Under the pieces are notes generated by a model. The model did no database searches. It saw only the letters and a program-made list of their open reading frames with translations, and was not told where the DNA came from. A stretch of DNA of 64,000 nucleotides from Kaistia terrae (GTDB lineage Bacteria > Pseudomonadota > Alphaproteobacteria > Rhizobiales > Kaistiaceae). This document shows positions 29,312-43,832 of this stretch, in pieces; positions within the stretch are counted from its first letter, which is position 1; each line of letters opens with the position of its first letter. The DNA lies in the NCBI RefSeq assembly GCF_026344005.1, contig NZ_JAPKNH010000009.1:62001-126000 (forward strand), read 5' to 3'. The translations under genes were made by a program, and so were the position numbers.

Positions 29312-30025
29312 ATGAATATCGGGAAAAACCCATTGAATCCGCCAAAAGAGTCCAACGATCGGCCGATCCAGAAAGCCGAGCAGATATATGGGTTGCTGCG
29401 CGAAGCGATCGTTCGCCTAGCGATGGTGCCCGGTGCCGCGATCTCCGAAAAAGAGCTCTGCGCGCAGTTCGGCGTGTCGCGGACCCCCGTGCGTGAAGCC
29501 CTGAAACGTCTTGTCGACGAGGATCTCGTCGACGTGTTTCCGCATTCGGGAACCTATGTCAGCAAGATCTCCTACGAGGTGGCGGAGGAGGGTTTCGTCA
29601 TCCGCCGGGCTTTGGAAATCGAGAGCATTCGCCGGGCGACGCAATTCGTCACCGATCCGCAGATCGCCCGCCTCGACGCCCTCATCGCCGAGATGCGCGA
29701 CATCCTGCGCCGCGATGCGCTCAACGATTACATCATCGTCGACGACGCCTTCCACGCGACCATTGCCGAGATCAGCCGCTATCCGCGGATGTGGAAGTTC
29801 ATCAATCTGGTCAAGGCGCATCTCGACCGGATGCGCCAATTGAGCGCGCCGGTACCGGGCCATCTGGCCGAGGTGACGGAACAGCACGCTGCCATCGTCC
29901 GGGCGCTGGAGCGGCGAAACGCCGATCAGGCCGAGCTTGCGATGAAGATCCACCTCGACGCGTCCTTTGCCGTGATGAGCGCCATGTACGAGGACGGCAA
30001 ATTCTTCAAGCGCAAGGAACTCTGA
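29312..30025 (+). CDS. GntR-family transcriptional regulator (FCD type)
   Basis: The 237-residue protein has an N-terminal winged helix (residues about 20-85) with EKELCAQFGVSRTPVREALK, the GntR recognition segment. An all-helical FCD ligand domain follows (DDAFHATIAE and EQHAAIVRALERRN, with metal-binding histidines). It probably controls the two divergent sugar operons around it. Its stop overlaps the dehydratase start (TGATG), so it is autoregulated if the operon is. Confidence 0.92.
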   Translation: MNIGKNPLNPPKESNDRPIQKAEQIYGLLREAIVRLAMVPGAAISEKELCAQFGVSRTPVREALKRLVDEDLVDVFPHSGTYVSKISYEVAEEGFVIRRALEIESIRRATQFVTDPQIARLDALIAEMRDILRRDALNDYIIVDDAFHATIAEISRYPRMWKFINLVKAHLDRMRQLSAPVPGHLAEVTEQHAAIVRALERRNADQAELAMKIHLDASFAVMSAMYEDGKFFKRKEL

Positions 30026-31569
30026 TGCTCGATACCCCCTCTGGCATCTCGCCTCTGATCCGGCTGCATCCCGCCGACAACGTCTCGATTGCCCGGCTGA
30101 CGGTGGACCCGGCCCAGACACCCGTTGTCGACGGCATCGTGGTGCTGGATCGCATCGGCCAGGGGCACAAGATCGCCATGCAGCCGATCGCCAGGGGCGC
30201 CCCGGTGACGAAATATGGCCAGACCATCGGCTTTGCGCGCACGGATATCGCGCCCGGCCAGCATGTTCACACGCACAACCTCGCCATGGCCGAACTCGAA
30301 CTGCGCCACGAGTTCTGCGCCGGCGCGGAAGAGCCGGATTTTGTAGCCGAAGCCGAGCGCGCCCGCTTCATGGGCTTTCGCCGCAAGGACGGGCGTGTCG
30401 GCACGCGCAATTTCCTCGCCATCGTCTCGTCGGTGAACTGCTCGGCCACCGTCTCCAAAGCGGCCGCGGCACATTTCGCCCCGGCGACGGGCCGTCTCGA
30501 CGCCTTTCCGAATGTCGACGGCGTCATCGCGCTGACGCATGGCGGCGGTTGCGCCATCAATACCGAAGCCGAGGGCTATAGCTACCTGACCCGCGTGCTC
30601 GCCGGCTATGCGACGCATCCCAATGTCGGCGCCGTGCTGATGATCGGCCTCGGCTGCGAGACCAACCAGATTCCGCTGCTCCTGAAGCGGCACGGGCTGG
30701 AGCCGGGAGAGGCGTTCCGCACGCTCACCATCCAGACCGAAGGCGGCACCCGCGCCACCATCGCCTCGGCAATCCAGGCCATCGAGGCCATGCTGCCGGC
30801 GATGAACGCGATGGAGCGCACATCCGAACCGGCTTCGCACATCACGCTGGCGCTCGAGTGCGGCGGCTCGGACGGCTATTCCGGCATTTCCGCCAATCCG
30901 GCGCTGGGCTTCGCCGCCGACCTGCTGGTCCGCCATGGCGGCACGGCAGTGCTGGCCGAAACGCCCGAGATCTACGGCGCCGAACACCTGCTGACCCGCC
31001 GCGCGGCAACGCCCGCCGTCGCGCAGAAGCTGCTCGACCGGATCGAGTGGTGGCGCGATTACGCCACGCGGGGCAAGGCCGAGCTGAACAACAATCCGTC
31101 GCACGGCAACAAGGAAGGCGGGCTGACCACCATCCTGGAAAAGTCGCTGGGAGCCGTCGCCAAGGGCGGCACCTCGCGCCTCAACGCCGTCTACGAATAT
31201 GCCGAGCCGATCGACCAGAACGGCTTCGTCTTCATGGATACGCCGGGCTACGACCCGGTCGCCGTGACGGGCCAGGTCGCCGGCGGCTGCACCATCATCT
31301 GCTTCACGACGGGGCGCGGATCCGTCTCCGGCTTCAAGCCGGCGCCCTCGCTGAAGCTCGCGACCAACACGCCCATGTACCAGCGCATGCGCGACGACAT
31401 GGACATCAACTGCGGCACGATCGTCACCGGCGACGAGACGATCGAAGCGGCCGGCCAGCGCATCTTCGAGATCATCCTGGCGACCGCCTCGGGCGAGAAG
31501 ACGCTGAGCGAAATCCACGACTACGGGGACAATGAATTCGTGCCCTGGCAAGTCGGCGCCGTGATGTGA
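30025..31569 (+). CDS. UxaA-family sugar-acid dehydratase
   Basis: The 514-residue protein joins an N-terminal SAF-like domain (DRIGQGHKIAMQPI near residue 45) to the large UxaA/GarD C-terminal domain (GFRRKDGRVGTRNFLAIVSS near residue 115, LTHGGGCAI, GLGCETNQIP, GGSDGYSGISANPA). Altronate and galactarate dehydratases have this layout. Here it would supply the sugar-acid dehydration step after the lactonase. Substrate is unproven. It overlaps the GntR stop by one base. Confidence 0.88.
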   Translation: MLDTPSGISPLIRLHPADNVSIARLTVDPAQTPVVDGIVVLDRIGQGHKIAMQPIARGAPVTKYGQTIGFARTDIAPGQHVHTHNLAMAELELRHEFCAGAEEPDFVAEAERARFMGFRRKDGRVGTRNFLAIVSSVNCSATVSKAAAAHFAPATGRLDAFPNVDGVIALTHGGGCAINTEAEGYSYLTRVLAGYATHPNVGAVLMIGLGCETNQIPLLLKRHGLEPGEAFRTLTIQTEGGTRATIASAIQAIEAMLPAMNAMERTSEPASHITLALECGGSDGYSGISANPALGFAADLLVRHGGTAVLAETPEIYGAEHLLTRRAATPAVAQKLLDRIEWWRDYATRGKAELNNNPSHGNKEGGLTTILEKSLGAVAKGGTSRLNAVYEYAEPIDQNGFVFMDTPGYDPVAVTGQVAGGCTIICFTTGRGSVSGFKPAPSLKLATNTPMYQRMRDDMDINCGTIVTGDETIEAAGQRIFEIILATASGEKTLSEIHDYGDNEFVPWQVGAVM

Positions 31570-31630
31570 GGAGAAACTTGGAAGCCGGTCACCACACCAA
31601 CCAGAGCCGGCATCCAGGGAGAGGAAAAAT

Positions 31631-33202
31631 ATGAGCGATCTCAAAGACAGCTACGACATCGTCATCATCGGCGCCGGTGTCGGCGGCGGTGCGCTGGCCA
31701 ATACGCTCGCAGCCCCCGGCCGCAACATCCTGATGATCGAGCGTGGCACCCGCTTGCCGCGCGAGTCGGACAATTGGAGCGTCGACGCCGTCTTCCACAA
31801 GCGCAAATACGCCGCCAAGGAACAATGGCGCGACAAGAATGGCGCGTTGTTCAACCCCGGCACCTATTACTATGTCGGCGGCAACTCGAAGTTCTTCGGC
31901 GCCGCGACGGTGCGTTTCCGCAAGGAAGACTTCGAAGACCTGCAGCACGAGGCGGGTGTCGCCCCGGCCTGGCCGGTCTCCTATGCCGAATTCGAGCCCT
32001 ATTACGCCCGCGCGGAAAAACTGATGGGCACCCATGGCCAGGCCGGCCTGGATCCGATCGAGCCGCCGCGCAGCGGTCCCATGCCCTTTCCGGCCATCGG
32101 CCACGAGCCCGAGATCGCTTTCTTCGAGAAGAAGCTGCGCGAAAAGGGCCTGCATCCGTTCCCGCTGCCGATCGCCATCGACTATCACAAGGGCGGCAGC
32201 TGCATCCGTTGCGCCACCTGCGATGGCTTCGCCTGCAAGATCGGCGCGAAGGGCGATGCCGAAGTGCGGCTGGTCGATCCGGCGCTCGCCAAGGGTGGCG
32301 TGACGCTGGTGACGGAGAGCTATGTGCGGCGGCTGATCACCGATCCGTCCGGCAAGCGCGTCGTCTCGGTTGAGCTGGAGCATGAGGGCCAGATCCGCAC
32401 GATCACGGGCAAGATTTTCATCTCGTCCGCCGGCGCGATCAATTCCTCGGCGCTGCTGCTGCGCTCGGCCAATGAGAAGCATCCGAACGGCCTCGGCAAC
32501 AACACGTCCGACCAACTCGGCCGCAACTACATGGCCCACAACAACACGGCGATGATGGCCGTTTCGCCGTTCAAGAAGAACCGCGTCACGTTCCAGAAGT
32601 CGATGGCGATCAACGACTATTATCTCGCCAACAAGGAGCGACCCTATCCGCTTGGCAACGTCCAGGGGCTGGGCAAGCTGCAAGCCGGCATGCTGACGGC
32701 GAACCTGCGCTGGGCACCCGAGGCCCTGATGGCGCTATTTTCGGAACGCAGCGTCGATTGGTGGCTGATGTCGGAGGATCTGCCCGATCCCAACAACCGC
32801 ATCAGCGTCGATCCCGACGGCAAGATCCGCGTCGCCTATACCGAGAACAATCTGAAGTCGCATGGCGAGCTGGTGAAAATCTGGACCCGCCACATGCGCT
32901 CGCTCGGCTATCCGATCATCATCACCCAGAAGATGGATATCACGGTGGCGATGCATCAATGCGGCACGGCCCGCTTCGGCAAGGATCCCGCGACCTCGGT
33001 GCTCGACACCAACTGCAAGGTCTGGGACGTCGACAATCTCTATGTCGTCGATGCCTCGTTCCTGCCGTCCTCGACCGGCTTCAACCCCTCGCTGACGATC
33101 GTCGCGCAGGCGCTGCGGACCGGCGAGCACATCCTGAAGGAGCTCGGCGAGACCGTTCCCGCCGCGACGCAGCCCACCGCCGACGGAAGAGCCGCCGCAT
33201 AA
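31631..33202 (+). CDS. GMC-family oxidoreductase
   Basis: The 523-residue flavoprotein has the FAD motif DIVIIGAGVGGGALAN near residue 9, a cysteine-rich loop (CIRCATCDGFACKIG near residue 195), and the C-terminal catalytic His region MHQCGTARFG followed by DASFLPSSTGFNPSLTI. Members oxidise alcohols and sugars, often with a cytochrome or quinone acceptor. No signal peptide is visible. It is in the middle of the plus-strand operon. Confidence 0.88.
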   Translation: MSDLKDSYDIVIIGAGVGGGALANTLAAPGRNILMIERGTRLPRESDNWSVDAVFHKRKYAAKEQWRDKNGALFNPGTYYYVGGNSKFFGAATVRFRKEDFEDLQHEAGVAPAWPVSYAEFEPYYARAEKLMGTHGQAGLDPIEPPRSGPMPFPAIGHEPEIAFFEKKLREKGLHPFPLPIAIDYHKGGSCIRCATCDGFACKIGAKGDAEVRLVDPALAKGGVTLVTESYVRRLITDPSGKRVVSVELEHEGQIRTITGKIFISSAGAINSSALLLRSANEKHPNGLGNNTSDQLGRNYMAHNNTAMMAVSPFKKNRVTFQKSMAINDYYLANKERPYPLGNVQGLGKLQAGMLTANLRWAPEALMALFSERSVDWWLMSEDLPDPNNRISVDPDGKIRVAYTENNLKSHGELVKIWTRHMRSLGYPIIITQKMDITVAMHQCGTARFGKDPATSVLDTNCKVWDVDNLYVVDASFLPSSTGFNPSLTIVAQALRTGEHILKELGETVPAATQPTADGRAAA

Positions 33203-33242
33203 GGCGCCCACCCGAAAAACATTGCCTCTGGAGGAAACAACC

Positions 33243-34037
33243 ATGTCCGCAAAGCGGGACTACACGCGCCTGTTCGACCTCACCGGCCGCAAGGCGATCG
33301 TCACCGGCGGTTCGCGCGGCATCGGCCGCGCCCTGACCGAGGCCCTCGCGGCGCAGGGCGCCGACGTCGCCATCGTCGTGCGTTCGTCGATCGACCTGGC
33401 GCAGAGCCTTGCCGACGAGTTGAACGCCGAGGGCGGCGACAGCTTCGCCATCCAGGCCGACGTCTCGGTTCCCGCCGACGTCGAGCGACTGGCGGCCGAG
33501 GTCGCGGCGCGCTGGGGCCGGGCCGACATCCTCGTCAACAATGCCGGCATCGTGCTGCCCGGCAATGCCGAGGACTATCCGCTGGAGCAGTGGCGGCAGA
33601 CGTTGAACGTCAATCTCGACGGCGTCTTCCTCGTCAGCCAGGCGATCGGCAAGATGATGATCGCGCAGAAGAGCGGCTCGATCATCAATATCGGCTCGAT
33701 GTCCGGCCGCATCGTCAACTGGCCGTTCCGCCACGCCGCCTACAATGTGTCGAAGGCGGCGGTCCACATGCTGACGAAATGTCTCGCCACCGAATGGGCC
33801 GAGCACAACATCCGCGTCAACGCGCTGGCGCCGGGCTACATCATGACCGAACTGACCGAGGAAGTTCTGCGCGAGCATCCCGACGTCGTCGCCAACCATT
33901 GGGCCAAGGGCGCGGTCATGAACCGGATCGGCACGGTCGACGAGCTGGCCGGCTCGGTTGTCTATCTCGCCAGCGACGCCGCCTCGTTCACCACCGGCGA
34001 AATCGTCACCGTCGATGGCGGATTGACACTGCGCTAG
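33243..34037 (+). CDS. Short-chain dehydrogenase/reductase
   Basis: The 264-residue SDR has cofactor motif VTGGSRGIGRAL near residue 20, NNAG near residue 97, catalytic Ser in NIGSMSGR and the YxxxK in AAYNVSKAAV near residue 168. The C-terminal TGEIVTVDGGLTLR is typical. In a fucose pathway this could be the 2-keto-3-deoxy-fuconate dehydrogenase. I chose the ATG at 33243 with GGAGG eight to twelve bases upstream. Confidence 0.92.
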   Translation: MSAKRDYTRLFDLTGRKAIVTGGSRGIGRALTEALAAQGADVAIVVRSSIDLAQSLADELNAEGGDSFAIQADVSVPADVERLAAEVAARWGRADILVNNAGIVLPGNAEDYPLEQWRQTLNVNLDGVFLVSQAIGKMMIAQKSGSIINIGSMSGRIVNWPFRHAAYNVSKAAVHMLTKCLATEWAEHNIRVNALAPGYIMTELTEEVLREHPDVVANHWAKGAVMNRIGTVDELAGSVVYLASDAASFTTGEIVTVDGGLTLR

Positions 34038-34146
34038 CGCGGGAACTCCCCCCGCCGGCTGGCCTGTCGGGCCGGAAGTTCCCTCCCACTTCCGGTCCGA
34101 CTCCTTCGAGACGTCTCAAAACACTGAAATCACTGGAGTATTCGCC

Positions 34147-35259
34147 ATGTCTCAACGAGGCTACGGAGGACCGCTGCGCTATGTCCAAGGCCCTGGTGTC
34201 ATTGCCGATATCGGCCGCTATGCCGCGCCGCTGGGCGATTCCGCGCTCGTCGTCATCGACGGCTTCTTCTGGGACAGCCTGCGGCCGACCCTCGAGGCGA
34301 GCCTGACGGCGGCCGGCGTGAAGGTCGATTTCGTCCGCTTTGGCGGCGAATCCTCGGAAGGCGAGATCGAACGCTGCGTCGCGGCCGGCAAAACCGCCGG
34401 GGCGAAGGCTGTGATCGGCATCGGCGGCGGCAAGGCGCTCGATACCGCCAAGATCACCGCCTTCCACATCGGCGCGCGCATCGTCACCGTGCCGACGATC
34501 GCCTCGACGGATTCGCCGACCAGTTCGATCGGCGTCATCTATTCGCCGGATGGCGTCTATGACCGCGTCGTGCGCTGTGGCCGCAATCCGGATGTCGTGC
34601 TGGTCGACAGCGCGCTGATCGTGCAAGCGCCGGCGCGCTTTCTCGTCTCGGGCATGGGCGATGCCCTTTCCACGTTTTACGAGGCGCGCTCCAACATCGA
34701 ATCGCGCTCGCGCAACTATATTGGCGACGGCTATGCCGCGACCGTCGCCGGCTATGGCGTCGCGCGCTCCTGCCATGATGTCCTGATGCGCGATGGCCGC
34801 GCCGCCTTCGCCGCCGCCAAGGCCGGCCGGCTGACCATGGCCGTGGAGAACATCATCGAGGCCAACACGCTTCTCTCCGGCCTCGGCTTCGAGAATTGCG
34901 GCGTTTCCGCCGCGCATGGCGTGCATGATGCGCTGACGGTGCTCGAACCGACGCATCATTTCTTCCATGGCGAAAAGGTCGCCTTCGGCGTGATCTGCCT
35001 GCTCGTGCTGGAGAACCGGCCACCGGAGGAATTGAAGGAGGCGCTCGATTTCTGCATCGATCTCGGCCTGCCGACGACGCTGGCGGATCTCGGCCTGAAG
35101 GACGTGACGGCGGCCGAAATGGCTGAGGTCGGCGAGGCGGCGATGGACCCGGCCAATGTCATCCATTCGGTCCCTGTCGAACTGTCCGCGACGAAGATCA
35201 CCGATGCGATCTGGACGGCGAGCGCGCTGGCCGAAACCCACCGCCGTCAGCGCGTCTGA
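34147..35259 (+). CDS. Glycerol dehydrogenase-like iron/zinc alcohol dehydrogenase
   Basis: The 370-residue protein starts MSQRGYGGPLRYVQGPG. It has GIGGGKALDTAK near residue 95, VPTIASTDSPTSSIGV near residue 117, and metal ligands in SGMGDALSTFYEAR and SAAHGVHDALTV. This is the GldA branch, which oxidises glycerol to dihydroxyacetone or related diols. It ends the plus-strand sugar operon. The natural substrate in this locus is not clear. Confidence 0.9.
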   Translation: MSQRGYGGPLRYVQGPGVIADIGRYAAPLGDSALVVIDGFFWDSLRPTLEASLTAAGVKVDFVRFGGESSEGEIERCVAAGKTAGAKAVIGIGGGKALDTAKITAFHIGARIVTVPTIASTDSPTSSIGVIYSPDGVYDRVVRCGRNPDVVLVDSALIVQAPARFLVSGMGDALSTFYEARSNIESRSRNYIGDGYAATVAGYGVARSCHDVLMRDGRAAFAAAKAGRLTMAVENIIEANTLLSGLGFENCGVSAAHGVHDALTVLEPTHHFFHGEKVAFGVICLLVLENRPPEELKEALDFCIDLGLPTTLADLGLKDVTAAEMAEVGEAAMDPANVIHSVPVELSATKITDAIWTASALAETHRRQRV

Positions 35260-35783
35260 CGCCTTCCACCTTCCAAAATCCGCGGACCCAAGGCCCGCGG
35301 CCCAAACGACGGATCCCCGGTCCTGACTGCTCTCGACCGGGGCAGGGGTTCCCGCCCATATCGGCCCAAATTGTCAGGCTGATTGCCGTCGCTCGCCTCG
35401 TGCCCCGGGTGCCGGTCAGCTCGGGGCCGTGCTCGGCGTCATCCCCGTCGAGCACGACCGGCGCCTGCAGCCCGCCGCCTGCGATCGCGCCTGCACCTCA
35501 CCATGCCGGAAAAAGCGCCCGTCGGTCGGGCCATGGCTAACCCAATCGATTGTGCCGCTGGCGACCATCGGTGCGGTGTGCCGCATGGCGGCAGCCGCCA
35601 CAGCATTGTCGAGGCATGTCCGCGCCACGCGCCGATGCTTCTGGCCCTTGGTTCAGTATGAAATAGAGCCAGTATTGAAGAATATTCAATTTCTGCTACG
35701 TCACCTGGGCATGAATTGGGCTCGACCGCCTTAAGAAGTGGCTTGATTACGTCTATTTTCTCTGTGATGATTGAAGCGCTTCA
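35260..35783. other. Intergenic region between the two sugar loci
   Basis: The 524 bases contain no supportable gene; overlapping frames of 70-100 codons exist in several phases, as expected at high G+C. The final part is A+T-richer and holds the palindrome listed separately. No clear terminator after the glycerol dehydrogenase gene was found. Confidence 0.5.
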
Positions 35784-35784
35784 A
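35771..35784. promoter_or_regulatory. Perfect LacI-type operator palindrome
   Basis: TTGAAGCGCTTCAA is a perfect 14-bp palindrome with the central CG step typical of LacI/GalR operators (pattern TGAAxCGxTTCA). It ends 14 bases before the chosen start of the LacI-PfkB gene. Its position fits autoregulation by that protein. I found no second perfect copy in the window. Confidence 0.72.
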
Positions 35785-35798
35785 TGATCGAGGATGAA

Positions 35799-36989
35799 AT
35801 GCGACGCAAACGGCCAACCATTTCTGACGTTGCAAGTGCCGCCGAAGTCTCGGTCGGGACGGTGTCGAACTATCTGAATGGCACCGCAAACGTACGGCCG
35901 GCGACAAAGCTTCGGATTGATGATGCCGTTCGTCGGCTCGCCTATCGCCCAAGCGCGTTTGCCCGGTCGCTATCGGCAAACAGTCCGGCTCGGCCCCAGG
36001 TGGATCGGGCAGCGATGCCGCGCCTCATCGTGGTTGGCTACATCAGCGTTGATTACATGTGCCGTGTCGACGTCTTGCCGCATCGCGATGATCGCATTAC
36101 GGCCCATCACATCGAGAAGGGGCTCGGCGGTCCCGCGGCCAATCTGGCGGTGGCGGCGGCTGGTATCGGCGCGAACGGCACATTCGGCATGGATGTCGAA
36201 CTGGCTACCGCGCTAGGCGACGATCCCGACAGCGATTGGGCGATCGCGGAGTTGTCGGCCAAGGGTGTTCATGCGCTCGCTATTCGTCGGCCGACCAACA
36301 ACAGGCTTTCGCGCTGCATCGTCTTCATCGAGCCGAACGGCAGCCGCACCATCGTGAACGAGCCGTTCGAATTGTCCGAGATGGACTTGACGGACTATTT
36401 CGCCATCGAGCGTGCCGACCGCACCTCGTGCCTGCATATCGAAGGCTATCACTACGAGCGCCTGCGAGGCTCGATTGATCGCTTTCATCAGGAGGGATGG
36501 AAGGTTTCCCTTCATTCCGCCGGCCTGCCAGGCAGCGCGCGTACCCCCTCCGGCTTTCTGGAGGTCATCGAGCGGCTGGATCTCGTCTTCGCCAGCGATG
36601 AACTCGTGCGCGACATCTTCGATATCCGCGCCTCCGGCCAGGATCTCGTCAATGCGGTGGGCGCGCAACTGGCGCAGATCGGCACGCGCGGGCATTTCGT
36701 CCTGACCCTCGGCCCTCTCGGCGCTGTCGTTTTCCCGGGAGATGGCCAGGTTCCTTTCACTGTGCCGGCCCTGCCGGTTCGACCGGTCGACACCACGGGC
36801 GCGGGCGACAGCTTTGCCGGTTCGTTCCTCGCCTACTGGTTGAATGGCGCCTTGCTCAGCACCGCGGCCAGGCACGCGGCGGCGAGCGCCAGCTTGACGG
36901 TGACGGCCGAGGGCGCCCAGGGCCGGACATCAAGCCATGAGGAACTGCTCGAAGCGGTGTCCGATTTCCAACTGCAACAAGCGTCGTGA
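35799..36989 (+). CDS. LacI-type DNA-binding domain fused to a PfkB sugar kinase
   Basis: Residues about 1-60 are a LacI helix-turn-helix and hinge: PTISDVASAAEVSVGTVSNY, with VRPATKLRIDDAVRRLAYRP. A short linker leads to a full PfkB/ribokinase domain (about 75-396) with GLGGPAANLAVAAAGIGA and the catalytic anion-hole DTTGAGDSFAG near residue 331, so kinase activity looks intact. The usual LacI sugar-binding domain is absent. I chose the ATG at 35799 because GAGG lies five bases upstream. An ATG at 35784 overlaps the palindrome. It heads a seven-gene operon for sugar import and phosphorylation. Confidence 0.9.
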   Translation: MRRKRPTISDVASAAEVSVGTVSNYLNGTANVRPATKLRIDDAVRRLAYRPSAFARSLSANSPARPQVDRAAMPRLIVVGYISVDYMCRVDVLPHRDDRITAHHIEKGLGGPAANLAVAAAGIGANGTFGMDVELATALGDDPDSDWAIAELSAKGVHALAIRRPTNNRLSRCIVFIEPNGSRTIVNEPFELSEMDLTDYFAIERADRTSCLHIEGYHYERLRGSIDRFHQEGWKVSLHSAGLPGSARTPSGFLEVIERLDLVFASDELVRDIFDIRASGQDLVNAVGAQLAQIGTRGHFVLTLGPLGAVVFPGDGQVPFTVPALPVRPVDTTGAGDSFAGSFLAYWLNGALLSTAARHAAASASLTVTAEGAQGRTSSHEELLEAVSDFQLQQAS

Positions 36990-37022: not shown

Positions 37023-37775
37023 ATGGTTTTTAAGATGATCGGAATCGTGAAGCGCTTCGGTGGGCTGACCGCGCTCGACCACGTTGATTTCGAAGTGGGC
37101 TCTGGCGAGGTCATGGCCCTGGTCGGCGACAATGGTGCGGGCAAGTCGACGCTGATCAAGACCATGTCGGGCGCCCATGCCCCCGACGAGGGCACGATCG
37201 AGATGGAAGGCAAGCTCGTCCGCTTCCGCTCGCCGCAGGATGCGTGGGAAAGCGGCATCGCGACGATCTTTCAGGAGCTCGCCCTGGCGGGCAAGATGAC
37301 CGTCGTCGACAATATTTTCCTGGGGCGGGAAATCCGCAAGCCGGTCCTCGGCATTCCGTTCCTGGACCGGCAGGCCATGCGAAAGCGCACCGGAGAACTG
37401 CTGCAACAGCTCGACGTGCATGTGCCAAGCATCGATTCCTGGGTTGAATCGATGTCCGGCGGCCAGCGTCAGGGCGTGGCGATCGCGCGTGCCCTCAACA
37501 TGGATGCCCGACTGATCATCATGGACGAGCCGACGGCTGCCCTGGCCGTCGCCGAGGTCCGGAAGGTCCTCGAATTCATCAAGACGTTGCGGACACAGGG
37601 AAAGTCCGTCGTGCTGATCTCCCACAATATTCAGGACGTCTTCGAGGTGTCCGACCGTATCTCGGTCATGCGTCATGGACGCTGCATCGCGGTGCGAGAA
37701 ACCGCGAAGACAACCCCGCAGGAAATCATTGGCCTGATCACCGGTGCCCACGAAGTGCGCGCAGCCGCCTCGTGA
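37023..37775 (+). CDS. Sugar ABC transporter ATP-binding protein (single domain)
   Basis: The 250-residue ATPase has Walker A GDNGAGKST near residue 38, signature MSGGQRQGVAIARAL near residue 142 and Walker B LIIMDEPTAALAV. It is the single-domain FrcA type, unlike the double-domain protein at 25187. It starts 33 bases after the LacI-PfkB gene and serves the binding protein and permeases that follow. Confidence 0.92.
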   Translation: MVFKMIGIVKRFGGLTALDHVDFEVGSGEVMALVGDNGAGKSTLIKTMSGAHAPDEGTIEMEGKLVRFRSPQDAWESGIATIFQELALAGKMTVVDNIFLGREIRKPVLGIPFLDRQAMRKRTGELLQQLDVHVPSIDSWVESMSGGQRQGVAIARALNMDARLIIMDEPTAALAVAEVRKVLEFIKTLRTQGKSVVLISHNIQDVFEVSDRISVMRHGRCIAVRETAKTTPQEIIGLITGAHEVRAAAS

Positions 37776-37847: not shown

Positions 37848-38834
37848 ATGAACAGGATTTTGAAGAGCAGCATACTCGGCCTCCTCGCCGCGACGGCGTT
37901 GGCTGTCACGGCGTCGGCGGCGGACAAGGTTCGGGTGGCCTTTGTCCCGCAGATCCAGGGCATCCCTTATTATGTTGCGATGGAAGAGGGGGCGAAGAAG
38001 GCCGCGGCAGCCTTTGGCGTCGAGTACATCCAGCAGGGGCCGACCAGCACGAACTCCGCCGACCAGCTCAGGATATTCGAGAGCTTCGTCAGCCAGGGCG
38101 TCAATGTCGTGGGCGTATCGCCCGTCGATGTCGAAACGCTCAAGCCGGCCATCGCAAGCGCCCGCGCCAAGAACATTCACGTCATTACCTCCGATGCCGA
38201 TGCCGTCGGCAGCGAGCGGGAATTCTACGTCGCTCAGGCGATGGATCAGGATCTCGGCTTCACGATCCTCGACGAAATGGTCGAGCGGATCGGCGCCGAA
38301 GGCAAGATCGCGATCATCTCCGACGCGCCGACGATCGCAAGCCTCAACGCCTGGATCGCGGCGATCAAGGAGCGCGCCACGACGAAGTATCCCAAGCTTC
38401 AGATCGTGTCGGTTGACCACACCGATGGTACGGCCTCGCGCGCCTTCCAGTTCGCAACCGACGCGATGACCCGCACCCCCGATCTCGGTGGCATCATCGG
38501 CATCGCCTCCACCACCTGCCCAGGCATCGGCCAGGCCGTGGAAGCCGCCGGCAAGCAGGGCCAGATCGTCACGGCAGGGTTCTGCTCGCCGAACACGGTC
38601 AAGGACTACGTCATGAGCGGCGCGATGACGTATTCGGTGCTGTGGAACCCGGCCGACCTTGGCTATCTGACCGTTTGGGCAGGCAAGCAGGTCGCTGACG
38701 GCGTGGCTTTCGAGGAAAGCCCGAAGATCGAGGGTCTGGACGCCAAGGTGCGCTGGTTGAAGGACGAGAAGATCCTGCTTCTCGGTGACCCGATGGTCTT
38801 CACCAAGGAAAACATCGCGCAGTTCAACTTCTAG
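37848..38834 (+). CDS. Sugar ABC transporter substrate-binding protein
   Basis: The 328-residue protein starts MNRILKSSILGLLAATALAV with a Sec signal cleaved near ASA|ADKVRV. The mature type I binding fold has FVPQIQGIPYYVAMEEGAKK, VSPVDVETLKPAIASARAKN and a SDADAVGSERE loop. This resembles the rhamnose/AI-2-binding (RhaS/LsrB) group more than ribose-binding protein. The ligand is unknown. It lies between the ATPase and permease genes. Confidence 0.88.
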   Translation: MNRILKSSILGLLAATALAVTASAADKVRVAFVPQIQGIPYYVAMEEGAKKAAAAFGVEYIQQGPTSTNSADQLRIFESFVSQGVNVVGVSPVDVETLKPAIASARAKNIHVITSDADAVGSEREFYVAQAMDQDLGFTILDEMVERIGAEGKIAIISDAPTIASLNAWIAAIKERATTKYPKLQIVSVDHTDGTASRAFQFATDAMTRTPDLGGIIGIASTTCPGIGQAVEAAGKQGQIVTAGFCSPNTVKDYVMSGAMTYSVLWNPADLGYLTVWAGKQVADGVAFEESPKIEGLDAKVRWLKDEKILLLGDPMVFTKENIAQFNF

Positions 38835-38914: not shown

Positions 38915-39895
38915 ATGGCTTCCGTGGCGGATACGCGGCCCGCGCTGCGCTTTGTATCTCCGACCGCATCGCGCGAACTGGCCCTCATCGCGGCGATCAT
39001 TCTGGTCTGCACCGTCTTCACGGTGGCTTCCCCCTATTTCCTGAGCGTCAACAATCTCGTCCAGACGATGCGCGCTGGCCTTGAGCTCTCGATCGTTTCG
39101 GCCGGCATGACGCTCGTGATCATCATGGGCGGCATTGATGTCAGCGTCGGGGGCATCGTCGCCGTTTCGGCGATCGTGATCGGCAAGGCCTATCAGGCCG
39201 GCCTGCCGGTCTATGTGGTGACACCGCTGGGTCTGATGGCGGGAACGGCGCTGGGCGCGTTCAACGGCTTCGTGACGACCAAGCTCAAGGTCCCGCCGAT
39301 CATCGCCACCCTCGGCTCGATGTATATTTTCTCGGCGATCATGTTCCTCGTCATCGGTGGCGCATGGATCTCCGGCTTGCCTGGCACGCTTTCCCCGCTG
39401 GTCAATGGCTGGCTGGGCTTCTTGCCGGCATCGGCGCTGGTGATCGCCGTCGTCTATGCCATTGCCTGGGTCTTGTTGCGCAAACTGCCCTACGGCAACC
39501 ATCTCTACGCCATCGGTTGCAGCGAGCCATCGGCCCGCCTCGTCGGCATCAATGTCGACCGCACCAAGATCCTGACCTATGCGTTTCTTGGCCTTCTCGC
39601 GGGCCTCGCCGCGCTGCTCTACGTGGCGCGCATGCGCAATGTCGAAATCAATATCGGCACGACCATCGCGCTCGAAGCCATTGCCGCCACCATTCTTGGC
39701 GGCACAAGCATTCGGGGTGGCGTCGGCAGCCTGCTTGGCACGCTGCTGGGCGTCGTCTTCATACGCATCATGCAGAACGGCCTGGTGCTTATGGGCATCT
39801 CCTCTCTCTGGGAAACCGTCATCATCGGATCGCTTCTGATCTGCGTGCTGACCGCCGACGCTCTGCGCAATCGCAACAATCCGAGGGCCCAATGA
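38915..39895 (+). CDS. Ribose-type ABC sugar transporter permease
   Basis: The 326-residue membrane protein has about ten helices. IIMGGIDVSVGGIVAVSAI near residue 67 is the canonical signature of the class, with YGNHLYAIGCSEPSARLVGI in the coupling region. It overlaps the next permease by four bases (ATGA). Confidence 0.92.
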   Translation: MASVADTRPALRFVSPTASRELALIAAIILVCTVFTVASPYFLSVNNLVQTMRAGLELSIVSAGMTLVIIMGGIDVSVGGIVAVSAIVIGKAYQAGLPVYVVTPLGLMAGTALGAFNGFVTTKLKVPPIIATLGSMYIFSAIMFLVIGGAWISGLPGTLSPLVNGWLGFLPASALVIAVVYAIAWVLLRKLPYGNHLYAIGCSEPSARLVGINVDRTKILTYAFLGLLAGLAALLYVARMRNVEINIGTTIALEAIAATILGGTSIRGGVGSLLGTLLGVVFIRIMQNGLVLMGISSLWETVIIGSLLICVLTADALRNRNNPRAQ

Positions 39896-40872
39896 TGTCA
39901 CGCCTGGCCGGACTTCGTGCCGGCGACCCCTTGCGGGCCCGCCTGTTCATGCTGCTCGCCTTGTGGCTCGTCGCCATTGTGGTGATGAGCTTGCTATCTC
40001 CCTACTTCCTGCGCGCAAGCACCGTTCCCTACCTCCTGCAATATGTGCCGATCCTCGGCCTGCTCGGGCTCGGGCAGACCCTGGTGATCCTCGGCGGTGG
40101 GCCCGGTATCGATCTTTCGGTGGGCTCGATTGTCTCGCTCGTTGGCGTCGCGGTCGGTGGTCTTTTCGTCCTCGGCGTCGACATCTGGCTCGCCTCGGCG
40201 CTCGGCTTGATGCTCGGCGCGCTGCTTGGATTCGTGAACGGCGTTTTGGTCAACGTCCTGCGTATTCCCTCCCTGATGGCGACGCTTGCGACCATGTTCG
40301 CGTTTGGCGGGTTGGCCCTTGCCACGACATTGGGCAGTCCGATCGGCGGATTGCCCGCCGAATTCGGCTGGCTCGGGCAAGGACGGACGCTGGGCCTGCC
40401 GAACGCCTTTCTCTTCGTCCTGCTGCCGGTGGCCGTCATCCTGCATGTCATGATCACGCGAACCACGATCGGTCGCCATATCGTCGCTTGCGGCAATGAC
40501 GATCGCGCAGCCCATCTCTCGGGCTTGCCGGTCGTCCGAATTCGCGTCGGTCTCTATGTCCTGTCCGGTGTGCTCGCAGCACTCGGCAGCATCATCGCCA
40601 TGTCATGGTTCCTGGCGGCGCGACCGGACGCGGGCAAAGGCATGGAGCTGCTTGCCGTGACGATCGCGGTTCTGGGCGGTACCCATATCTTCGGCGGAAC
40701 GGGCGGCGTTCCCGGCACGATCATCGCCATCCTGATCGTCACCACCCTGCAGATCGGCCTGCAGCTCGCCAATATTTCCGCAGCCTGGCAACTGGGTCTG
40801 ATCGGCGTTCTCCTGATCGTGTCCGTATCGCGCTTGTCGCTATGGCGCCGGGTGAAAGGCGCGAGAGCGTAA
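39892..40872 (+). CDS. Ribose-type ABC sugar transporter permease
   Basis: The 326-residue partner permease starts MMSRLAGLRAGDPLRARLF. It contains LGGGPGIDLSVGSIVSLVGV and GRHIVACGNDDRAAHLSGLP. The frame is open far upstream, but the start at 39892 overlaps the previous stop and gives a normal length. Its TAA overlaps the following kinase start (TAATG). Confidence 0.92.
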   Translation: MMSRLAGLRAGDPLRARLFMLLALWLVAIVVMSLLSPYFLRASTVPYLLQYVPILGLLGLGQTLVILGGGPGIDLSVGSIVSLVGVAVGGLFVLGVDIWLASALGLMLGALLGFVNGVLVNVLRIPSLMATLATMFAFGGLALATTLGSPIGGLPAEFGWLGQGRTLGLPNAFLFVLLPVAVILHVMITRTTIGRHIVACGNDDRAAHLSGLPVVRIRVGLYVLSGVLAALGSIIAMSWFLAARPDAGKGMELLAVTIAVLGGTHIFGGTGGVPGTIIAILIVTTLQIGLQLANISAAWQLGLIGVLLIVSVSRLSLWRRVKGARA

Positions 40873-41840
40873 TGTCCATGATCGATGTTCTGTGCATCGG
40901 GGATCTCGATGTCGATATGTTCATCTCGGTTCCGGAAATCCCCGGCTTCGACCAAAAAGTTTCTGGCCGCAATCGCGGCCAGATGCCGGGCGGCATGTCC
41001 GCCAATTGCGCGGTCGCCGTCGCGCGCCTCGGCCTGAACAGCAGGCTGCTCGCGGCCGTTGGCAGGGATGCGTCCGGAGCTTTCGCTGTCGGCAAGATTC
41101 GGGGCGAAGGCGTCGATGTCGATCATCTCGTCTATCGCGACGACGCCGATACCTTCATGTGCGTCGTCATGCTCTCGCCCTCGGGCGAGAAGTCGCTGAT
41201 CAAGCTTGAAACCGATGCCTACCTGCCGCGTCCCGGCGAGGTGACGGCGGATGCTTTCGAGGGTGTGCGCCATCTCCATTTGACCTATGGCCAGCCCGAG
41301 CTTGCCCGGGTCGCGCTCAGCATGGCGGCCGAGCGGGGTATTTCCACATCGCTCGATCTGGAGCCGCCGGACATCGTGCGCAATCCGCACCTTCTCCGCT
41401 CGATCCTGCCCATGGTCGACACGCTGTTTCTCAACCGCGAAGCACTCGGCAAGGCCGAGAGCGCGCTGGGCGAAGCGCTGGTTCCGGCTCATCTGCGCCA
41501 GAACGGCGAAATCATCGTGACGCTCGGCGCTGGAGGATGCCGGCGGCTGGCGACCGGCAGCGTGGAGGAGGTGCCCGGTTTCGAGGTTCGCACCGTGGAC
41601 ACGACCGGTGCTGGAGACTGCTTTGCCGGCGCGTATCTCGCAGCGCGGCTGACGGGCGTGGAGCCGGTGGACGCCATGACACGCGCCAACGCGGCCGCCG
41701 CCCTGGCGACGCTTGAGGTGGGTTCACAGACCGGGATGCCGGACCGCGCGGCGGTCGAGGCATTCATGCAGGAACGGATCGGCCGTTCCCGCGAGACGTC
41801 AGCCGAGACGTCAGAATTGAGTGGAGAATTGCATGCCTGA
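40872..41840 (+). CDS. PfkB-family carbohydrate kinase
   Basis: The 322-residue kinase starts MSMIDVLCIGDLDVDMFISV. It has GGMSANCAVAVARLG near residue 39 and the catalytic DTTGAGDCFAGAYLAAR near residue 247. Ribokinase-like kinases of this type phosphorylate sugars or sugar derivatives (FrlD acts on fructoselysine). Coupling to the permease upstream (one-base overlap) suggests it acts on the imported compound. It is the second PfkB domain of the operon. Confidence 0.9.
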   Translation: MSMIDVLCIGDLDVDMFISVPEIPGFDQKVSGRNRGQMPGGMSANCAVAVARLGLNSRLLAAVGRDASGAFAVGKIRGEGVDVDHLVYRDDADTFMCVVMLSPSGEKSLIKLETDAYLPRPGEVTADAFEGVRHLHLTYGQPELARVALSMAAERGISTSLDLEPPDIVRNPHLLRSILPMVDTLFLNREALGKAESALGEALVPAHLRQNGEIIVTLGAGGCRRLATGSVEEVPGFEVRTVDTTGAGDCFAGAYLAARLTGVEPVDAMTRANAAAALATLEVGSQTGMPDRAAVEAFMQERIGRSRETSAETSELSGELHA

Positions 41841-42810
41841 GCGCCGCTTCGACCATATTGGCGAGCTCGAACTGCTCGGACTGACGCCGCCCGACGAGAC
41901 CACGATGCACTTTCTCTGGCAGATCGTCGACGAGGGCGTGCTCGGCGCGAGCCGTCACGTTCAGCTAGCCAACCAGCTCATCCTGCACCTGATTGACAGC
42001 GGCGATGACGGCGTGCGGCGCGCAAGGCTGGTCGCGGATTTTATCTCGCGAACGAGAGGCCATGACACGCCGGTCATCGGCAATAGCCTCCGTATCCTGC
42101 TGGCGGGATTGGACGACATCCCCGCCGACCGGCAGGCGGAGACCTTGAGGACGCTTGTCGCCAATTGGGATCAAGCCGCGGCCACCCGCAAGAAAACGCT
42201 GGTGGAGACGGCGGTGCGCCATCTTTCCGATGTGCGCGGCATCATGGCGTTCGACTATTCGAGCACGGTCTCCGCCATCGTCATCGCTCTTGTCGAGCAC
42301 AGGAGCGATGTGCGGATCGTCGTGCCTGAAAGCCGGGCCATTGCCGGCGGCGCGCGCTATCTCGAGGAGTTCCTGCCGCACGGCTTGCCTGTCGATTTCA
42401 TCCCGGATGCCGCCATTGAGCATGGTTTGATGCGGTGCGACGCGGCCCTGTTCGGCGTCGAGACCCTGCGCGCGGATGGGAGCTTCCTCAACACGATCGG
42501 CAGCCGCATGATCGCTCGCCTGGCGGCGGCGATGGGTGTCGAGATCTACGGCGCGACGGATCTGATGAAGCTGGATCAGCGCAGCTATGGCGGCCACCGG
42601 CCGACACCCGCCTTGCGGAGCTACGATACGATCCTCAAGGGCGGACTCTCGATCGACGGGCTGGAGCGCGCGACCACCACCGCGCCCGAGCTGGACGTTG
42701 TGCCGGCAGACCTCACGACCGCTCTTTTCACGGAATATGGCGTCGTGCCCCCGTCGGCAATCTGGTCCCTGGGCCGTCTGACATTTGGAATCGGCGAGAA
42801 CTCGCGATGA
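41833..42810 (+). CDS. eIF2B / ribose-1,5-bisphosphate isomerase-fold protein
   Basis: The 325-residue protein has the family's C-terminal half, with VRIVVPESRAIAGGARYLEE near residue 177, IPDAAIEHGLMRCDAALFGV and NTIGSRMIARLAAAMGVEIY. Characterised isomerases of this fold use a Cys in a THCN-like motif and an Asp in GAD. The matching places here read AFDYSS and GVE, so the usual catalytic pair is altered and the reaction may differ. The ATG at 41833 has GTGGAG eight bases upstream and overlaps the kinase gene end. Confidence 0.72.
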   Translation: MPERRFDHIGELELLGLTPPDETTMHFLWQIVDEGVLGASRHVQLANQLILHLIDSGDDGVRRARLVADFISRTRGHDTPVIGNSLRILLAGLDDIPADRQAETLRTLVANWDQAAATRKKTLVETAVRHLSDVRGIMAFDYSSTVSAIVIALVEHRSDVRIVVPESRAIAGGARYLEEFLPHGLPVDFIPDAAIEHGLMRCDAALFGVETLRADGSFLNTIGSRMIARLAAAMGVEIYGATDLMKLDQRSYGGHRPTPALRSYDTILKGGLSIDGLERATTTAPELDVVPADLTTALFTEYGVVPPSAIWSLGRLTFGIGENSR

Positions 42811-43832
42811 ACACGATGATGAAGAACGAGATTGCGGCGCAGGCGGACCTTTTGCCAGGTCTCCAGCCGCTTCTGGCTGCGGCTGCCGATGCGTTGCCCC
42901 GTGCAAAAGGCCGGATTCTGGTGGGCGGTTGCGGAGATTCCGCCTTTGCCCCCGAGGCGCTGCTCGAGGTCTTTCGGCGCTTTGGGATTGCCATCGAGCC
43001 ACGCACATCGATGCAACTCGCCCATTTCACGCGCTTCGAGGAGAACGACACGGTTGTGCTCTCGTCGATCTCGGGTGGCACAAAGCGGACCGTGGAAGCG
43101 GCAGATGTCGCCAGGGCAAGCGGAGCCCGTGTCATCGCGGTCACCTGCAATGCCGAGAGCGCCCTCGCGAAGGCCAGCGCGGCCGCCGTCATCCTGCCGT
43201 TTGCGCCGCTATCCAGAAAGACGCCGCACACGCTGGACTATGCCATTACGCTGCTGGCGCTCGCCGAAATCGGACGAAGCCAGGCTGGCCTGCCTGCGGA
43301 CACCTTGGCGTCAAGCGTTGCCGATATCGCCGCGAGACTTGCGCAAGCCGATACCGCGGCTCGTCCCATCGCCGACGCATACCGGTCGGAAGGCAAGATC
43401 TTCTTTCTGGGTGCAGGAGAGGATCGAGGCACGGCCGATTACGCCGCTGCAAAATTCCATGAAGCTGGCGGGCTGGTTGCCATCTCGGCGGAGTCTGAGA
43501 ATTTCGTCCACGGCATGAATTTCATGCTGGAGCCGGAAGATACGCTCGTCGTCGTTGCTTCGTCACCTGCCGCCAAGAGGCGTGGCCGCGAAATCGTCGA
43601 AGCGTTCGAGACGCTGTCGACGGCCTTCTTGCTGACGGTTGGCGATGAGGAGCTTGCCAAGGCGGACGATGCTTCCGTGGCATTCTCCCAGCTCCTCGAT
43701 CAAACCTTCACCCTGCAATACGCCTGCCTCCACGCTGCAAATCGCCTGGGATTGAAGCTGGAAGAGCCGCGAGCGGGCTGCCAGAACGGAAAAATACATC
43801 TGGCCGCCCAATCGAGAGCAATGGAAAGCTGA
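42807..43832 (+). CDS. Double-SIS domain sugar isomerase/deglycase-like protein
   Basis: The 341-residue protein has two SIS domains. The first has ILVGGCGDSAFAPEALLE near residue 35 and SSISGGTKRTVEAADVARA. The second has IFFLGAGEDRGTADYAAAKF near residue 200 and AESENFVHGMNFML. The layout is that of GlmS-C, AgaS and FrlB proteins. FrlB splits a fructosamine 6-phosphate into glucose 6-phosphate and an amine. It overlaps the upstream gene by four bases and ends the operon. Function here is inferred. Confidence 0.82.
   Translation: MNTMMKNEIAAQADLLPGLQPLLAAAADALPRAKGRILVGGCGDSAFAPEALLEVFRRFGIAIEPRTSMQLAHFTRFEENDTVVLSSISGGTKRTVEAADVARASGARVIAVTCNAESALAKASAAAVILPFAPLSRKTPHTLDYAITLLALAEIGRSQAGLPADTLASSVADIAARLAQADTAARPIADAYRSEGKIFFLGAGEDRGTADYAAAKFHEAGGLVAISAESENFVHGMNFMLEPEDTLVVVASSPAAKRRGREIVEAFETLSTAFLLTVGDEELAKADDASVAFSQLLDQTFTLQYACLHAANRLGLKLEEPRAGCQNGKIHLAAQSRAMES

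Follow-up and report, generated by a model that had tools for sequence, protein, structure and literature searches.

A LacI-type helix-turn-helix joined to a PfkB-fold domain, with a predicted operator of its own, in Rhizobiales

Repressors of the LacI/GalR family (LacI, CcpA, PurR) have a helix-turn-helix (HTH), a hinge sequence, a periplasmic-binding-protein-like effector domain and an even palindrome with a central CG just 5′ of their own gene. A gene on a 64,000-nucleotide stretch of Kaistia terrae DNA (contig NZ_JAPKNH010000009.1, positions 62,001 to 126,000; termed the window) encodes a protein that shares the HTH, a hinge-like sequence and the palindrome with these repressors, and has a PfkB domain in place of their effector domain. 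With the PfkB/ribokinase family (RbsK, YihV, ketohexokinase) this fusion has in common the fold, as modeled, the GG..N residues and the GAGD catalytic motif; it differs from that family in its N-terminal DNA-binding domain, the loss of the Glu of the NXXE motif and the replacement of ribokinase Lys43 by Pro. In ROK repressors a sugar-kinase-related domain likewise follows an HTH, and in BzdR a kinase-derived ligand domain is joined to a DNA-binding domain. ROK repressors such as NagC and Mlc have another kinase fold and another HTH than the fusion; BzdR belongs to other HTH and kinase families and has an aromatic ligand; NadR and RbkR, each a regulator and kinase in one polypeptide, have other HTH and kinase folds and belong to vitamin and cofactor pathways. 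Extracts of published reports mention ROK (PMC555942) and BzdR with a shikimate-kinase-related ligand domain (PMC6079105). Salmonella RikA (STM3547) also combines an HTH and a PfkB domain in one annotated open reading frame; in the available sections of its description the HTH is of the DeoR type, unlike the LacI-type HTH of the window, and the protein, an active ribose kinase, was translated from Met90, lacking the HTH, in the growth conditions used, a long form not being excluded by its authors (PMC13432705). Regulators with kinase-derived domains (ROK, BzdR, and RikA as annotated) are already known; no LacI-PfkB combination was found in the literature searched, coverage of which was partial and dependent on spelling.

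The fusion gene of the window is a 401-codon reading frame uninterrupted by a stop (Table 1). Pfam assigns its product a LacI domain (PF00356, residues 12–57, E 4.4e-13) and a PfkB domain (PF00294, residues 78–380, E 2.9e-36), and at E 0.001 no other domain is matched, hence no periplasmic-binding-protein-like effector domain and no ROK model. This bears out a preliminary description, made from the sequence alone, of a LacI HTH fused to PfkB in a single polypeptide that keeps the sequence DTTGAGDSFAG. Both domains are present in all 15 aligned full-length fusion proteins (window plus 14 others), which rules out the frameshift or assembly artefact joining two genes that had been named as a possible refutation. 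The AR.L core of the hinge sequence is found in 14 of the 15, the exception being a plasmid-encoded protein of Roseivivax marinus. The 401-residue form starts at ATG 35784, on the last base of the palindrome; ATG 35799 (396 residues), five bases past GAGG at 35790–35793, is likely the true start, and the palindrome would therefore lie just 5′ of the Shine-Dalgarno sequence. The gene is single-copy in its genome, where 20 other matches align with the kinase part or the HTH part alone. The fusion gave no sign of a phage or viral origin, matching nothing in a phage collection at E 1e-10 and no viral fold at E 0.001.

A first structure prediction, from a 12-row alignment, gave a mean predicted local distance difference test score (pLDDT) of 73.5; a second, from 29 rows, gave 83.0 and a predicted template modeling score of 0.79. 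Five of the 29 rows are stand-alone PfkB proteins and may pull the kinase part of the second model toward that fold. In this model the HTH comprises helices 8–15, 19–26, and 34–47, and a further helix (53–61) is placed at the hinge with pLDDT below 50; strands that we take for the ribokinase lid are also present. Chains of ribokinases and of the sulfofructose kinase YihV ranked highest in Foldseek (TM score to target up to 0.87), and the 50 matches listed are all ribokinase-fold kinases. The sequence GGPAA in the fused kinase also occurs in YihV. Domain search and modeling, both suggested beforehand as checks, agree with the earlier proposal that a complete ribokinase-fold domain replaces the LacI sensing domain.

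The perfect palindrome reported just upstream of the fusion, TTGAAGCGCTTCAA (P1), is present at its position without mismatch and has no second exact copy anywhere in the 5.59-Mb genome. With at most one mismatch, P1 lies 5′ of the fusion in 14/14 Rhizobiales loci, window included (the Roseivivax locus and a truncated one, L025, were left out of this count and the corresponding one for P2, below), compared with no locus in each of 200 dinucleotide-shuffle sets and 0/645 other windows of the same loci. It is also found in 19/19 held-out loci, and so in 33/33 Rhizobiales loci overall; the held-out loci are all from one genus, in which 12 other matching genomes gave no locus. Conservation of kinase motif and palindrome among homologs had been set as a test of the preliminary description, and both are conserved (the GAGD Asp in 15/15 proteins, P1 in every Rhizobiales locus), the Roseivivax member being without the palindrome. 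LacI-family operators are described, in excerpts of one account, as even palindromes with a central CG, self-regulation being common (PMC4052901). P1 has the form expected of a LacI-type operator and is a predicted site, so that the claimed operator stands as an operator-like sequence of the fusion's own. Near matches to P1 (one to three mismatches) occur at five places in the window against a shuffle mean of 2.44, no excess over chance. Across the genome, one-mismatch copies of P1 occur at seven further places (L031–L037), where a reversed-pattern control gave two. In 32 of the 33 loci a loose scan, run without a shuffle control, placed a −35 candidate starting TTG at 16–18 bases ahead of a weak −10-like hexamer that lies at P1.

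Related operons without the fusion were found in Neorhizobium, Paracoccus, Rhizobium ACO-34A, and Pantoea, and have PfkB, BtpA, TenA, and transporter genes in common; the plasmid gene tables used for this comparison are incomplete. A GATase gene is present in three of the four (annotated “cytoplasmic protein” in ACO-34A), and Pantoea has an ArgE-linked transporter set. In each of the Neorhizobium, Paracoccus, and Pantoea operons a LacI-family regulator is annotated as well as a separate PfkB protein, and the first 72 residues of a “transcriptional regulator” of ACO-34A are 89% identical to the Neorhizobium regulator. The regulator gene opens the set in Neorhizobium, Paracoccus, and ACO-34A; in Pantoea it lies divergently beside the set. 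Just 5′ of the start of the Neorhizobium regulator stands AGTAAAGCGCTTTACA, which resembles P1 in place and in its GCGC center. The Roseivivax operon has the fusion together with a relative of the separate kinase, and the 19 kb read there contain no annotated LacI gene. Over its full length the Pantoea stand-alone kinase shares 37% identity with that of Roseivivax, and it is only weakly similar to the fused kinase. Since the fusion-free operons have both a LacI-type regulator and a separate PfkB protein, the fusion seems to stand in the slot of the regulator and not of the kinase, and the idea that it replaces an ordinary LacI regulator gains support. This exchange and P1 are together the best evidence for the fusion as a regulator. 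On plasmids, a module of sugar ATP-binding cassette (ABC) transporter, GATase1_like, phosphotriesterase-like, PfkB, BtpA/SgcQ, and TenA genes recurs (L064, L067, L068, L069, L070); it is found in Rhizobiaceae and Paracoccus, and Pantoea has a set related to it. No LacI regulator is annotated in the 14.9 kb read of R. leguminosarum RCAM1365.

It is likely, with a probability of roughly 0.8, that the fusion is an autoregulated local repressor that occupies P1 until a sugar binds in the PfkB pocket; its DNA binding and repression, its ligand and allostery, its oligomeric state, and any phosphate transfer are what we infer here from sequence. Two LacI-type HTHs, joined through the kinase domains and short hinge helices, would bind P1 over the transcription start, blocking the operon; the genes controlled would be the transport and catabolic genes 3′ of the fusion. 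On entering the cell, the transported sugar or a derivative of it would bind the PfkB pocket, and closure of the lid would change the spacing of the two HTHs and release repression.

Several observations weigh against such a repressor. In Roseivivax the fusion is without the hinge sequence, neither P1 nor P2 occurs in the 350 bp 5′ of it, and no P1-like site lies 5′ of the first gene of the operon. The 33 loci are related, with all 19 held-out loci from one genus. The position of the fusion as first gene of its operon was checked gene by gene only in the window, and a stricter consensus scan of the window found no promoter at P1. Among the fusion-free operons, the Neorhizobium palindrome recurs only imperfectly in Paracoccus and ACO-34A, and the Pantoea palindromes are unrelated.

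If the fusion is a repressor, its kinase domain may sense the sugar with or without turning it over. Residues of the fused kinase were mapped on E. coli ribokinase (1gqt) by profile alignment, where we take Asp16 and Asn46 to be substrate residues and Asp255 the catalytic residue, equivalent to Asp342 of the fusion. All 15/15 fusions retain the Asp16 and Asn46 equivalents, the GG pair, and GAGD including the catalytic Asp. The Lys43 equivalent is Pro in 15/15, which would speak against ribose as the ligand. The NXXE motif, described in part of one report as involved in magnesium binding in the PfkB family (PMC5931981), has lost its Glu in 15/15; its Asn is kept in 11/15 and lost in 4/15, the window among them. 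Standard NXXE is present in the Roseivivax ribokinase and in two other PfkB proteins of the K. terrae genome (L003, L007); in this control alignment rows L005 and L006 were empty and L004 unaligned, none being counted, and because its GAGD column was misplaced, GAGD counts are from the main alignment only. The stand-alone kinases of the type A operons (below) have N-x-E-A in place of standard NXXE in 9/9 rows, so that loss of this motif is no proof of inactivity and a dead kinase is not established by it.

There is about an even chance that the domain is purely a sensor, binding the sugar, perhaps with nucleotide, and making no useful phosphate transfer, as in ROK repressors. The decay of NXXE, the separate kinases of the type A and Roseivivax operons, and the exchange with LacI-type regulators are all consistent with this, while the invariance in 15/15 of the catalytic Asp and its preceding GAG is a retention that a sensor would not need. 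It is less likely than not that, as proposed earlier, the fusion is a trigger enzyme in full, with the fused PfkB domain a working pathway kinase whose catalytic cycle sets repression. The substrate and catalytic residues kept throughout would suit this, as would the departure from canonical NXXE in the second kinase of type A as well, and no relative of that second kinase was found in five type B loci or annotated in the operon of R. etli 8C-3; the complete loss of the NXXE Glu, the loss of its Asn in four proteins, and the separate kinases elsewhere argue against it. Because the type A and Roseivivax operons hold a separate PfkB kinase, the enzyme of the pathway may be one other than the fused domain. 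The kinase proposed earlier to be apparently active, and to sense its sugar perhaps by phosphorylation, is accordingly upheld in its sugar-contact residues and catalytic Asp and placed in doubt by NXXE and the separate kinases; on these residues and gene sets, a sensor with weak or no catalysis is somewhat likelier than an active kinase.

A second conserved palindrome (P2; consensus ATTGAA-N5-TTCAAT) lies upstream of P1. It was first seen in the first eight relatives and is absent from the preliminary description. With at most two mismatches it is found in 13/14 loci (shuffle mean 0.445, largest 3; control windows 3/645), the exception, L010, having an even-spaced form with the same arms. As P2 had been defined on part of these 14 loci, it was retested on the 19 fresh loci and found in 19/19, giving 32/33. 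P2 has the same TTGAA/TTCAA half-sites as P1, with odd spacing, a variable AT-rich center and no central CG. The distance between P1 and P2 is 94.5–95.5, 113.5, or 131.5–136.5 bp across the 33 loci; these three spacing groups share no single helical phase, and looping in strict helical phase is not borne out. The only other exact P2-type site in the genome (L038, 1501–1517) lies between genes that look, by eye, MFS-like and TetR-like.

P2 is probably a second site of the fusion, as favored by the shared half-sites. Alternatively, P2 may belong to an unrelated regulator, for instance of TetR type or a global one, with the fusion using P1 alone. This is a tentative possibility, and the less probable of the two: the odd spacing, the missing central CG, the lack of one helical phase and the TetR-like gene beside the other exact copy are in its favor, and the half-sites common to P1, together with the company P2 keeps with the fusion in both operon types, are against it. 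It is interesting to speculate that one HTH dimer on a kinase clamp could read both sites, even P1 over the start and odd, AT-rich P2 94.5–136.5 bp upstream, with the ligand or nucleotide state of the lid selecting or looping them, so that the catalytic cycle would show directly as a switch between operators; a kinase weakened at its magnesium motif would then be a slow timer, resetting induction as it consumes its own inducer. We consider this elaboration unlikely.

Among the 14 Rhizobiales sequences, the mean ratio of nonsynonymous to synonymous differences (pN/pS) came to 0.343 in the HTH and 0.342 in the kinase, against 0.841 in the linker; synonymous sites were close to saturation (mean pS 0.66–0.74). 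Judged by these ratios, the HTH and kinase are under equal purifying selection and the linker is loosely held, indicating that both halves are kept as protein. It is very improbable that the HTH is not made, the product starting at the kinase and P1 and P2 serving another regulator, a reading that counts against the repressor and finds its support in the RikA precedent (PMC13432705, as far as that source was available) and in a Met directly before the kinase in the window, since such a Met is found in only 3/15 proteins, purifying selection acts as strongly on the HTH as on the kinase, and P1 has the form suited to a LacI-type HTH.

A scan of genome contigs found eight near-full-length relatives with 57–78% identity in Aureimonas, Pelagibacterium, Rhizobium, Phyllobacterium, and a Rhizobiaceae metagenome-assembled genome, and two further matches limited to the HTH. 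In genome searches the fusion was present in 2/14 genomes of the genus of the window, 2/28 of its family, 4/397 sampled across the order, and 1/385 sampled across the class at E 1e-50, this last being the window's own copy; the family of G353 gave 1/87 and the genus of G229 32/146. Plasmid records contained three near-full-length matches, including that of Roseivivax marinus (42.9% identity); two more, from Rhizobium, were partial. Because the class search returned only the window copy, while the plasmid collection held this Rhodobacterales member, the genome samples miss some fusions. The fusion is carried by some bacteria, mostly soil Rhizobiales; outside this clade none turned up beyond the Rhodobacterales plasmid member, no systematic search having been made. 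A profile of the kinase domain alone, with five candidates scored per genome, matched 4/397 order genomes at E 1e-32, identical to the four fusion carriers, and at E 1e-12 the same five plasmid records as the full-length query. Close unfused relatives of the fused kinase were not found in the 397 order genomes or the plasmid records. Where a full-length copy is annotated, in two plasmid records, the fusion is called merely “PfkB family carbohydrate kinase”. In Rhizobium sp. T1473 (L025, 8935–9579) the fusion reading frame stops after the HTH and a short PfkB stretch, which looks like natural decay. In a tree of 23 fusion proteins the operon types clustered, with a single origin of type A in only 34% of bootstrap trees.

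Transporter genes lie 3′ of the fusion on the same strand in 14/14 Rhizobiales loci with flanks, window included. In type A (the window and eight loci) the fusion is followed by an ABC ATPase, a binding protein, two permeases, a PfkB kinase, an eIF2B-like isomerase, and a SIS protein. In type B (L017, L022, L023, L027, L028) it is followed by transporter genes of lower identity (ABC ATPase, binding protein, and two permeases), and no relatives of the last three type A genes were found in these five loci. A GATase1_like gene follows the fusion in the 19 held-out loci and in L017, L022, and L027 (tblastn), and was not found by this search in L028; in L017 (9218–9978) its match is split into two overlapping stretches that differ in frame, and it may be interrupted. 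In annotated R. etli 8C-3 (L023) a GATase1_like protein is present and an ArgE/DapE deacylase closes the gene set, no second kinase being annotated in the operon. The Roseivivax order is binding protein, permease, ABC ATPase, fusion, separate ribokinase, and TenA, with BtpA divergent.

The enzymes of type A suggest a phosphosugar route with a stand-alone PfkB kinase, an eIF2B-type isomerase and a deglycase-like SIS protein (40872–43832). The type A isomerase was found in 2/397 order genomes at E 1e-50, both fusion carriers. One weak solved relative of the SIS protein is 8glr, which we take to be FraB. Upstream, the neighboring gene in the window ends at 35259; it closes a group (29312–35259) with a GntR regulator and galactarate-dehydratase-like, GMC oxidoreductase, SDR, and glycerol-dehydrogenase genes, and no such cluster was found beside the fusion in relatives. 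In L012, other ABC genes lie about 1.4 kb upstream of the fusion.

Table 1. Features of the fusion locus, in window coordinates
Feature	Position	Strand	Basis
P2, second palindrome ATTGAA-GAATA-TTCAAT, center 95.5 bp 5′ of P1 center	35674–35690		conserved
Promoter-like TTGATT-17-GATGAT, second hexamer abutting P1, 8/12 matches	35743–35771	+	loose scan
P1, operator-like TTGAAGCGCTTCAA, even palindrome, central CG	35771–35784		exact; 12/14 columns invariant in 33/33 loci
LacI-HTH/PfkB fusion gene	35784–36989	+	open reading frame, Pfam; both domains in 15/15 aligned proteins
LacI-type helix-turn-helix, PF00356, residues 12–57	35817–35954	+	Pfam; three helices in model; pN/pS 0.343
LacI-like hinge-helix sequence, AR.L core	35955–35981	+	AR.L in 14/15 aligned proteins
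PfkB/ribokinase-fold domain, PF00294, residues 78–380	36015–36923	+	Pfam and fold comparison
DTTGAGD motif with predicted catalytic Asp342	36789–36809	+	15/15 conserved; profile alignment to 1gqt
Sugar-type ABC transporter ATP-binding protein	37023–37775	+	domain/profile match
Periplasmic binding protein, RhaS/LsrB-like, under curated cut-offs	37848–38834	+	domain/profile match
ABC permease 1	38915–39895	+	domain/profile match
ABC permease 2	39892–40872	+	domain/profile match
Second, stand-alone PfkB kinase	40872–41840	+	domain/profile match
eIF2B/ribose-1,5-bisphosphate-isomerase-like protein	41821–42810	+	domain/profile match
SIS-domain protein	42807–43832	+	weak solved relatives, including one named putative fructose-aminoacid-6-phosphate deglycase

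An enzyme fold appears here to have been turned into the sensor of a gene switch. If this is true, nature has swapped the effector domain of the best-studied family of repressors for an enzyme fold that binds sugar and is unrelated to it, with the usual form of operator kept. How a DNA-binding domain comes under the allosteric control of a new ligand domain would thereby become testable; such recoupling of domains is, in the portion of one report available, described as hard for engineers (PMC6079105). Natural replicates exist in the 33 loci, the two operon types, and the counterparts with separate regulator and kinase. The fusion would also offer a route to the ligands of sugar pathways that lack an assignment.

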